Shown here piece by piece: positions 14,943 through 18,134 of a stretch of DNA of 40,670 nucleotides. Position 1 is the stretch's first letter. Each line of letters opens with the position of its first letter. Position numbers and translations under genes: made by a program. The notes beneath the pieces were generated by a model that was given only the letters and a program-made list of their open reading frames with translations, made no database searches and was not told the DNA's origin. Source of the DNA: Thermostichus vulcanus str. 'Rupite' (GTDB lineage: Bacteria; Cyanobacteriota; Cyanobacteriia; Thermostichales; Thermostichaceae); contig NZ_JAFIRA010000037.1 in the NCBI RefSeq assembly GCF_022848905.1, positions 1 to 40,670 of the forward strand, in the 5' to 3' direction.

Positions 14943-15701
14943 ATGTGGCAGGCGTGGCTCCTGAGTCAATGGGGTGTGGCTCTCTGGCTCAATCTTGCTC
15001 TGGTGTTGTTGGGCCTGTTGAGCCCGCAGAAAGCATTGACCCGAGCAGGGGTTATCCACGCGGGCATTCTTGGGCTGCTGGTTTGGGGGGGCCTAGGGGG
15101 GCGGGGGTATGGGGTAGTAGCGGCCTACTTTTTGATCGGAACAGCCGTGACTAAGCTTGGGCTCCGTCGCAAGCAAGACCAAGGGATTGCCGAAAAACGA
15201 GGTGGGGCGCGGGGGCCGGAAAATGTTTGGGGATCCGCCCTGACAGGGGCCATTTGTGCGGTGGGCTATACCCTTTTCCCACATCCGTTGTGGTGGCTGG
15301 GGTACAGTGCCAGTTTTGCTGCCAAGCTAGCCGATACGGTGAGCAGCGAGGTAGGGAAAGCCTATGGCCGCAAGACTTTTTTGATTACCACCTGGCAAGC
15401 CGTACCGGCAGGTACAGAAGGGGCGATTAGCCTAGAGGGATCCCTGGCGGGAGTCACAGCGGCAGCAGGACTTTCGGCATTGGCTTGGGGCATAGGTGGG
15501 GAATGGGTGGCAGCCAATCTACTGTGGTTGGGCATCTGCTGGCTGGCCGGGATCCTGGCGACCCTGGCGGAAAGTTGGATTGGGGTGGTGTTGCAACCTC
15601 GTATTGCCTGGCTGACCAATGAAGTCGTGAACGGCATTCAAACCAGCTTGGCAGCCCTTCTGGCAGTAGGACTGGGATCCCTTATGGGTATCGGACGATA
15701 A
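14943..15701 (+). CDS. DUF92 membrane protein, VTE6-like phytyl-phosphate kinase candidate
   Basis: A 252-residue protein with about six membrane helices that carries the DUF92 signatures EKRGGARGPENVWG and ASFAAKLADTVSSEVGKAYG. DUF92 includes plant VTE6 and its Synechocystis relative, which phosphorylate phytyl phosphate to phytyl diphosphate so that phytol released from chlorophyll can feed tocopherol and phylloquinone synthesis. It is annotated on that basis, and the activity is inferred from the family. The ATG at 14943 begins in a short gap after tRNA-Ser. Within the window it is one of several genes tied to phytol, tocopherol or chlorophyll. Confidence 0.82.
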   Translation: MWQAWLLSQWGVALWLNLALVLLGLLSPQKALTRAGVIHAGILGLLVWGGLGGRGYGVVAAYFLIGTAVTKLGLRRKQDQGIAEKRGGARGPENVWGSALTGAICAVGYTLFPHPLWWLGYSASFAAKLADTVSSEVGKAYGRKTFLITTWQAVPAGTEGAISLEGSLAGVTAAAGLSALAWGIGGEWVAANLLWLGICWLAGILATLAESWIGVVLQPRIAWLTNEVVNGIQTSLAALLAVGLGSLMGIGR

Positions 15702-15732: not shown

Positions 15733-16980
15733 ATGTTAGGATCCAGGGTATTTCAACCTGCTCTGAGCATGACCCCTGAGCAAGAACAGTTGCTAACCGC
15801 CGCCATCCTTGAACTGAAGCAGAACTTCAATGTTTTGACGGAAAATCTGGCGCGGCAGGAAACTCGGCAAGACAGGGTAGAACAACTTCTGGCGCAGCAA
15901 GAAGCTCGACAAGAAACCCTCGAACAGATCCTAGCTCGGCAGGAAACTCGACAAGACAGGGTAGAACAACTTCTGGCGCAGCAAGAAGCTCGACAAGAAA
16001 CTCTCGAACAGCTCCTGGCGCGGCAGGAAACTCGGCAAGACAGGCTAGAGGAACTCCTAGCTCGGCAGGAAACTCGACAAGACAGGGTAGAGGAACTCCT
16101 AGCTCGGCAAGAAACTCGGCAGGACAGGCTAGAAGAACTCCTGGCGCGGCAGGAAACTCGACAAGACAGGGTAGAGGAACTCCTAGCTCGGCAAGAAACT
16201 CGGCAGGACAGGCTAGAAGAACTCCTGGCGCGGCAGGAAACTCGGCAAGACAGGCTAGAGGAACTCCTAGCTCGGCAGGAAACTCGACAAGCAACCCTCG
16301 AACAGATCCTGGCGCGGCAGGAAACTCGGCAAGACAGGCTAGAGGAACTCCTAGCTCGGCAGGAAACTCGACAAGCAACCCTCGAACAGATCCTAGCTCG
16401 GCAAGAAACTCGGCAGGACAGGCTAGAAGAACTCCTGGCGCGGCAGGAAACTCGACAAGACAGGGTAGAGGAACTCCTAGCTCGGCAGGAAACTCGGCAA
16501 GACAGGCTAGAGGAACTCCTAGCTCGGCAAGAAACTCGGCAGGACAGGCTAGAAGAACTCCTGGCGCGGCAGGAAACTCGGCAGGACAGGCTAGAAGAAC
16601 TCCTGGCGCGGCAGGAAACTCGGCAAGAAACTCTCGAACAGCTCTTGGCGCAGCAAGAAGCTCGACAAGACAGACTGGAGCACAACCAAGAGATACTGAC
16701 GCAACTTCTGCAGCGGCTAGATGCCCGAGTGGATAACCTATCTCGCAGCCAAGCAGCCTTAGAGGAAGCGACACTGGCGGCACGACGAGGTCAGGAACTG
16801 CTTTTGGATCTCATGCTACAAGCCAATCGCACCCAAGAACGGCTGGCTCAACTGTTGGCGAACCAGGAACAACGCCTCAACCAGCACGACGAAACGCTTG
16901 TGCAGCTGGCGGAAACCATTCAAGAAATCCGCTCCTACATTCGCTTTGCCCGAGAAAATGGCCATCCCAACGGCGGATAG
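15733..16980 (+). CDS. Coiled-coil protein built of twenty 14-residue tandem repeats
   Basis: A 415-residue hydrophilic protein. After a short N-terminal region (MTPEQEQLLTAAILELKQNF), residues 39-318 are 20 consecutive copies of a 14-residue unit, consensus LARQETRQDRLEEL, i.e. two heptads each, predicting an unbroken coiled coil about 40 nm long. Units vary at only a few places (DR/ET/AT, LEEL/VEQL/LEQI). The C-terminal ~95 residues stay heptad-like but are diverse (LTQLLQRLDARVDNL). No membrane segment or enzymatic motif is seen. The start may be ATG 15733 or ATG 15769; neither has a clear ribosome binding site. Antisense frames are also open through the repeats but are artefacts of composition. 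Function unknown; a structural, spacer or oligomerisation role would fit. Confidence 0.8.
   Translation: MLGSRVFQPALSMTPEQEQLLTAAILELKQNFNVLTENLARQETRQDRVEQLLAQQEARQETLEQILARQETRQDRVEQLLAQQEARQETLEQLLARQETRQDRLEELLARQETRQDRVEELLARQETRQDRLEELLARQETRQDRVEELLARQETRQDRLEELLARQETRQDRLEELLARQETRQATLEQILARQETRQDRLEELLARQETRQATLEQILARQETRQDRLEELLARQETRQDRVEELLARQETRQDRLEELLARQETRQDRLEELLARQETRQDRLEELLARQETRQETLEQLLAQQEARQDRLEHNQEILTQLLQRLDARVDNLSRSQAALEEATLAARRGQELLLDLMLQANRTQERLAQLLANQEQRLNQHDETLVQLAETIQEIRSYIRFARENGHPNGG
15847..16686 (+). repeat. 42-bp coding minisatellite, 20 units
   Basis: Twenty in-frame 42-bp units fill 840 bases without interruption. The units fall into a few nucleotide classes: those beginning CTCCTAGCTCGGCA and those beginning CTCCTGGCGCGGCA often alternate, giving an 84-bp higher-order period in parts. 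Near-identity of many copies at silent sites implies recent duplication or gene conversion. Confidence 0.95.
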
Positions 16981-16991
16981 CTGGGCTGGGA

Positions 16992-18134
16992 TCAAATCTT
17001 TTTGGTCTCGGGCTTAGTCAGACTGGGATCCCGGTAAAGTTCAACCTTGTTATCGCTATCAGCAGCACCTTTTGCACCAGAACTTAACCCACCCTCTGCG
17101 ACTAAATCGGCAGAACGGGAGATCTCATAAATACTTTTCACCACACTGGTCAAGGGTATGGCGATAATCACTCCAAGGATGCCCCCCAGTTGTGCCCCTA
17201 CCAAAAGAGCAATCAAAATCCACACTGGGTTCAAGCCGATCAACTCCCCCATTAAGCGTGGGGCGATCACCCGATCCTTTATCTGTTGCACAATCAAGGA
17301 AACCAGCACCACCTTCAGGCTCAACCATATATCCTGAAAAGCCAGCAACACCGCTGCTGCCCCAATGCCAATCACCCCGCCCACCAACGGGATCACCTCC
17401 AGCAAGCCGATCAATAGGCCAAATAGCAACCCAAAGGGCACTCGCAAAACGCCAAAAACCGGCACCAGCATCAGGGCCATGATGAACCCCAACACCAATT
17501 GGCTGATCAAGAAATTTTGAAAGCTCAAGGTCAGGGCTTCACCAATGCGGGGCCCCCAAGGTTGGGGAAAGAGGCTGAGCAGCCCATGCCAAAACTGCCC
17601 CCCATACAGCAACATATAGAGGGCCAAAACCAGCACCAGCACCAAATCAATCACCTGGTTAAAAGTACCCAAGAGAAGATCTAAAGATTGTCCGGCAATT
17701 TTCTCGGCACTGGCTTGCAGACGATTCAGGAGGGTATTCACCAGCTCCGTTTGGCCAAAAGGAAGATTGATATTCCGTTCGGCGGCCCAAAGGCTGATTT
17801 GATTCAGCCAATTTTGTAGCGTGTCTACCCAATCCGGGATCCGCGCCCCCAATTGAACCACTTGCTTGGCCAAAACCGGCACCACTGCAATCCCCACCAG
17901 CACCAGAAGAACCACTGACAGGGCAAAGACGAGAGTCACTGCCAAAGCCCGACTAACCCGGTAGCGCCGTAACACCTGCACCGGATAGTTCAGCAAAAAG
18001 GCCAGCACTGCTGCCGTCAAGATATTGGTGAGCAAATGCCCAAATAGCTGACCTACCCGTATGGCCAGCCAACCGCTAATCACGATCAAAATCCAGGTGA
18101 GCAGCAACCGCTGCAAAGGAGAAAAACGATTCAT
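16992..18134 (-). CDS. AI-2E family (UPF0118/PerM) transporter
   Basis: A 380-residue polytopic membrane protein. Paired N-terminal helices (LLLTWILIVISGWLAIRVGQ, then NILTAAVLAFLLNYPVQVLR) precede a long amphipathic loop. A C-terminal cluster of helices contains GLLIGLLEVIPLVGGVIGIG and IKDRVIAPRLMGELIGLNP, both hallmarks of the family. Members export autoinducer-2, act in Na+/H+ exchange or have unknown roles; the substrate here is not predictable. It follows fabI on the same strand after 33 bases and is convergent with the coiled-coil gene (11 bases apart). Confidence 0.92.
   Translation of the reverse strand: MNRFSPLQRLLLTWILIVISGWLAIRVGQLFGHLLTNILTAAVLAFLLNYPVQVLRRYRVSRALAVTLVFALSVVLLVLVGIAVVPVLAKQVVQLGARIPDWVDTLQNWLNQISLWAAERNINLPFGQTELVNTLLNRLQASAEKIAGQSLDLLLGTFNQVIDLVLVLVLALYMLLYGGQFWHGLLSLFPQPWGPRIGEALTLSFQNFLISQLVLGFIMALMLVPVFGVLRVPFGLLFGLLIGLLEVIPLVGGVIGIGAAAVLLAFQDIWLSLKVVLVSLIVQQIKDRVIAPRLMGELIGLNPVWILIALLVGAQLGGILGVIIAIPLTSVVKSIYEISRSADLVAEGGLSSGAKGAADSDNKVELYRDPSLTKPETKKI

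Follow-up and report, generated by a model that had tools for sequence, protein, structure and literature searches.

The window, that is, the whole stretch of 40,670 nucleotides analysed here, lies on contig C37 of the 3.72-Mb draft genome (G000) of Thermostichus vulcanus str. 'Rupite', an assembly of 120 contigs, and was compared with five congeners (G001 to G005). It contains a gene for a protein that consists mainly of repeated units of 14 residues, an unusual design for a rod, flanked by genes for a DUF92 membrane protein and for a transporter of the AI-2E family (Table 1). TRF reports a single strong coding array in the window, 42 bp in 19.7 copies (15847-16673, score 975, 80% matches, zero indels). 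Cutting this array in frame gives exactly 20 full units and 280 residues with the frame intact throughout, a count that comes from a single draft assembly with exact internal repeats of at most 98 bp. In this respect an earlier note on the same DNA, which had described a 42-bp tandem array of 20 in-frame units, is borne out. The start at position 15733 that it had assigned to the gene is, on the other hand, very unlikely. The ATG at 15769 is the first in-frame start common to the window gene and its syntenic ortholog in the sister species G003 (L044:5970-6425), while the ortholog's counterpart of the upstream ATG is out of frame; the upstream start is not conserved and the protein has 403 rather than 415 residues. 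Two open frames antisense to the array, at 15753-16685 and 15827-16783 on the reverse strand (310 and 318 aa), were rejected as a mechanical by-product, because a stop-free repeat with a period divisible by three yields such frames. The sequence GGATCC occurs 134 times in the 40.7-kb window against about 16 occurrences expected from dinucleotides, with none inside the repeat gene; 55 of these 134 sites are present as GGGATCCC, and the window lacks GCGATCGC, the HIP1 octamer usual in cyanobacteria.

Table 1. Coordinates of the repeat gene, its parts and neighbours in the window, and of family B genes in congeners (feature, position, strand, description)
Repeat coiled-coil CDS	15769..16980	+	403 aa, MTPEQEQLL... 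to ...ENGHPNGG, stop included; corrected start
N-cap	15769..15846	+	26 residues; 26/26 amino acids the same as in sister species G003
Array	15847..16686	+	20 units of 42 bp, 14 residues each, consensus LARQETRQDRLEEL
Longest exact internal repeat	16063..16244	+	98 bp, copies at 16063 and 16147, 84 bp apart
C-cap	16687..16977	+	97 residues, non-repeated heptads, tail EIRSYIRFARENGH at the end
Upstream neighbour, DUF92 membrane protein	14943..15701	+	Pfam PF01940, E 2e-55; synteny marker
Downstream convergent neighbour, AI-2E family transporter	16992..18134	-	Pfam PF01594, E 6e-68; synteny marker
Family B gene, G001	L114:2207-3226		8 complete near-perfect 75-bp units, one silent difference
Family B gene, G005	L117:2605-3495		5 near-perfect 75-bp units
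Family B gene, G004	L116:2520-3110		1 75-bp unit

Hydrophobic residues recur along the array with a period of exactly 3.5 residues, which none of 1000 shuffles matched. According to a simple register scoring scheme of our own, which is not COILS, the best of the seven registers is the same in all 27 overlapping 28-residue segments, covering the N-cap, the array and the C-cap. AlphaFold2, applied to a single chain with no alignment and thereby informative on the helix while saying nothing on oligomers, predicts one helix from residue 3 to 397 (mean pLDDT 79.7, dip at 185-192, pTM 0.28). In each unit the core reads Leu-Gln-Gln-Leu: position a is occupied by 20 Leu and 20 Gln, and position d by 20 Gln, 15 Leu and 5 Val. 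Further Leu or Ile residues are found at position g of the array heptads, Leu (or Val/Ile) is conserved at unit positions 1, 11 and 14, and charged residues constitute 44% of the array. The unbroken coiled coil that had been proposed can be retained as far as the heptad phase is concerned, which runs without interruption from N-cap to C-cap, but half of the a and d positions in its core are Gln, and a stable oligomer is therefore not guaranteed. The protein probably forms a genuine coiled-coil oligomer. Its 403 residues contain neither a signal-peptide-like nor a transmembrane stretch (maximal 19-residue Kyte-Doolittle mean of 0.41, polar N-terminus).

The order of the units in the array is ABCDEFGHGEIEIGHJGKLM, with 13 distinct sequences among the 20, a mean pairwise identity of 82% and variation at 11 of the 14 third positions. 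The supposed near-identity of the silent sites proved to be wrong: two randomly chosen units differ on average at about 35% of third positions (0.354) as opposed to 0.091 of first and second positions. Between the window and G003, the third-position difference is 19% in the C-cap, and 35% and 32% in the two neighbour genes. Since the silent sites have diverged while the amino acids have been kept, the array is not a freshly amplified minisatellite, and a young, homogeneous one is ruled out by the silent-site counts. With the NG86 method, dN is 0.11 and dS 0.68 between units (dN/dS about 0.16, such estimates being noisy on 42 bp). For the caps and other non-repeat parts compared with G003, dN is 0.033 and dS 0.338 (dN/dS about 0.1), so that the gene is under purifying selection; as judged from these ratios, selection on units and caps is purifying and acts at the level of the protein. 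Several units are nevertheless exact copies, class G being present four times, E three times, and H and I twice each, whereas the remaining units differ at about one third of the silent sites. Old copies of the unit stand beside recent ones in the array. The identity of units two places apart is 0.869, compared with 0.821 for shuffled units (5000 shuffles; p = 0.0046, or about 0.03 when seven lags are allowed for), so that the 84-bp higher-order period that had been described does exist as an excess. However, it is modest and local, being confined to A/C and B/D at the start of the array, G.G, and EIEI, and the units do not alternate steadily.

In G003 the repeat gene has the same DUF92 and AI-2E transporter genes on its two sides as in the window. 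Its product has 151 residues and exactly 2 units instead of 20, while both caps are intact; the difference of 252 residues corresponds to 18 x 14. The C-cap is 89% identical (about 90%) over residues 301-415 of the uncorrected frame. One genome per species was compared, and the variation in length is thus a variation between species. The gene is absent from G001, G002, G004 and G005, and hence present in two of the six genus genomes examined; in G001, G004 and G005 the DUF92 and AI-2E genes are located at separate sites. Unit 1 of G003 differs from window class G at only 2 of 42 positions, whereas the window classes differ mutually at up to 14. The unit classes are thus probably older than the divergence of the two species, and the G003 array has probably contracted, rather than the window array having expanded from two units, a reading of moderate strength given the short units and the single ortholog. 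The genome of the window also carries, at L005:1414-1767 (G000:C29:5295), a paralogous open frame of 118 aa with three INQEQQR heptads, and its C-terminal tail LRFSRENGHRNGAE is approximately the same as the tails of the window gene and of the G003 ortholog.

Elsewhere in the genus, at least four other coiled-coil loci vary by whole units, of 25, 14, 28 and 7 residues. Family B, with a 25-residue unit (75 bp), encodes proteins of 330 aa in G001, 268 in G005, 168 in G004, 161 in G000 and 136 in G003. The G005 and G004 proteins differ by 100 residues, or 4 x 25, although the surrounding 5.5 kb are 93-94% identical, and those of G000 and G003 differ by a single unit. In G001 and G005 the 75-bp units match at about 98%, and if length varies actively anywhere in the genus, these near-perfect arrays are where it is most likely to do so. 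Weak relatives of this family were found outside the genus. Family C, with a 14-residue unit, shows a difference of one unit (187 versus 173 aa); downstream of one of its genes lies a tandem array of the CCCACTCC type (L068:2276-2534, G001), and a similar short array is present in G005 (L072). Family D, with a 28-residue unit, is represented by a protein of 220 aa in G000. In its G003 ortholog (L123, G003:C2, about 173061-173455), which is apparently a pseudogene, the repeats are missing and the reading frame is disrupted close to the junction. The members of family E (L124 to L128), in which 7-residue units are followed by a C-terminal membrane segment, differ in length by whole heptads. Three syntenic genomes encode proteins of 118, 111 and 104 aa, each 7 residues shorter than the one before, and in the other syntenic pair the lengths are 153 and 132 aa, a difference of 21. 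The hydrophobic period tracks the unit, amounting to 3.5 for units of 7, 14 and 28 residues and to 3.575-3.58 for the 25-residue unit, for which 25/7 = 3.571 is expected. Each of the four unit lengths closes a whole number of turns of the hydrophobic stripe, and steps in whole units preserve helical phase. The prediction that unit number can change without breaking the frame or the heptad phase is supported between species, at the window locus as well as at other loci. As to the two observations that the earlier note had named as adverse, a constant copy number is not what is seen at the window locus, and among the relatives a lost frame is found only at the paralogous family D in G003.

No convincing homolog of the window protein was found outside the genus among 84,980 GTDB r220 species, nor in the plasmids and viral contigs searched, and the 388 genomes of the class yielded only one weak coiled-coil match of 27%. 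A search by sequence of solved structures gave no match, and nothing relevant was found in the literature on tandem-repeat coiled coils in this genus. The Pfam and NCBIfam matches to SMC, Rad50 and ABC_tran_CTD were rejected as compositional coiled-coil matches. SMC_prok_B scores 24 bits against a cut-off of 567, and ABC_tran_CTD, at 32 bits just at its cut-off, was dismissed because the match lies wholly inside the repeats and covers no non-coiled domain.

On the basis of these observations, it is proposed, with a probability of about 0.6, that the gene encodes a soluble, intracellular coiled-coil rod or scaffold that is tolerant of length and whose length changes by gain and loss of units. 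The protein would be mostly alpha-helical, its two caps conserved and its middle part built from units of two heptads, each adding four turns of the hydrophobic stripe and about 2.1 nm. Because the unit is two heptads long, gain or loss of units leaves frame and phase undisturbed. Over evolutionary time, unit number would shift by recombination or slippage between units, which we infer to be the mechanism at the DNA level, and the difference between 20 and 2 units would amount to about 37 nm of helix. The rod would most likely serve as a spacer or scaffold in which the caps do the binding, although no conserved operon partner pointing to a scaffold role was found. The genus reuses this design, with other units, in no fewer than four further families of coiled-coil genes; family D in G003 counts against the proposal in that a gene of this design can lose its frame.

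It could be imagined that length is of little consequence to an accessory gene, and that units drift by recombination under weak selection against frame loss alone. The presence of the gene in only some of the genomes, the tenfold change in unit number and the lost frame of family D would all agree with such near-neutral behaviour, which we regard as possible but not probable; the low dN/dS of the caps, the identical amino acids of the N-cap, the low ratio between units and the persistence of several independent loci of this design in the genus argue against it. A different view, of which a molecular ruler varying between cells had been put forward in the earlier note, is that the rod sets a cellular distance as a ruler, or that the gene is a contingency locus, with a unit number that differs among cells or strains under selection. 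This view can appeal to the steps in whole units between species, to the identical unit copies and the 84-bp repeat as signs of some turnover, and to the near-perfect related arrays of G001 and G005. The window array, however, is heterogeneous at silent sites, contrary to rapid slippage, and no known partner scales in size with the rod. A tightly tuned ruler is further disfavoured by the tenfold difference in unit number between sister species and the absence of the gene from four congeners. The ruler and the variation between cells are unsupported, and we consider them unlikely.

The remaining alternatives concern the nature of the molecule itself. The high charge of the array and the Gln residues at half of its core positions would also suit a charged single alpha-helix in monomeric form, or a helix that is weak and dynamic, and the AlphaFold2 prediction supports a helix only. 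Against such a helix stand the exact 3.5-residue hydrophobic period, the hydrophobic residues kept at three positions of the unit and the heptad-like C-cap, and this possibility is rather doubtful. Finally, the array could be a minisatellite of relevance to the DNA only, or an artefact of assembly, without meaning for the protein. Arrays of this kind are prone to misassembly, and the assembly is a draft; yet silent differences between units exceed replacement differences, which contradicts a role in DNA only, the frame is unbroken over 20 units, and the caps are conserved in the ortholog. In addition, the longest exact internal repeat is just 98 bp, and can therefore be resolved by assembly with longer words or reads. 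Such an explanation is highly improbable.

That bacterial surface proteins vary in length by turnover of units is well established, and is explained by immune or adhesive selection. In a free-living cyanobacterial genus, several apparently intracellular coiled coils change in whole-unit steps that preserve phase, and one may ask what kind of selection acts on the length of a rod within the cell. The forms with 2 and 20 units, and those of 104, 111 and 118 residues, constitute a natural length series for testing such selection. One might go further and speculate, tentatively, that throughout the genus intragenic turnover of units of 7, 14, 25 and 28 residues re-scales intracellular coiled coils of several unrelated or distantly related families while their caps are conserved, and that at least the near-perfect arrays (G001 and G005, family B) differ in length among members of a population, with functional consequences.

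Among known systems, the streptococcal M protein may be considered the closest analogue in its way of working, being a tandem-repeat coiled coil that varies in unit number, as the window protein does between species. The repeats of M6 are 14, 25 and 42 residues long, and its variation in size arises from recombination between intragenic repeats. M-protein dimers are heptad-based, and the protein is a long alpha-helical coiled coil built from repeats, the number of which differs between isolates (PMC8633249). It is a secreted, wall-anchored surface antigen, whereas the window protein is cyanobacterial and has no signal-like or membrane segment; lacking these features of secretion and anchoring, it is excluded from membership of the M-protein group. 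Periscope proteins resemble it in that rod length depends on a tandem array and the number of repeats differs among relatives. They are cell-surface stalks of folded domains, which were searched for as repeats of more than 50 residues with high identity (PMC8201768), unlike the window protein with its 14-residue helix segment as unit, its heterogeneous DNA units and no surface-targeting segment. In the same study, variation in repeat number was tied to high repeat identity (PMC8201768), and by this rule the window array is less likely to vary actively than the 75-bp arrays of G001 and G005.

Within cyanobacteria, the ssr2422 family of thylakoid membrane proteins (NCBIfam NF053525) is matched by the paralogous family E alone, with 65.2, 58.5 and 55.8 bits at a curated cut-off of 38; even the shortest form lies above this cut-off. 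Members of family E also show whole-unit steps in length, in contrast to which the window protein has neither a match to NF053525 nor a membrane segment. Coiled-coil-rich proteins (CCRPs) are defined by at least 80 residues in coiled-coil conformation according to COILS (PMC7002697). Set beside this COILS-based definition, our own scoring gives the window protein a 3.5 periodicity over 403 residues, together with one predicted helix and a core that is half Gln. It is likened to the characterized CCRPs in kind, not by sequence relation. The survey of cyanobacterial CCRPs does not treat turnover of tandem units, the word "tandem" having 0 occurrences in it, and reports that most families contain both CCRP and non-CCRP members (PMC7002697). 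Such mixed families are in line with a variable length of the coil, and by analogy the CCRPs would seem to be the natural functional home of this cyanobacterial rod.
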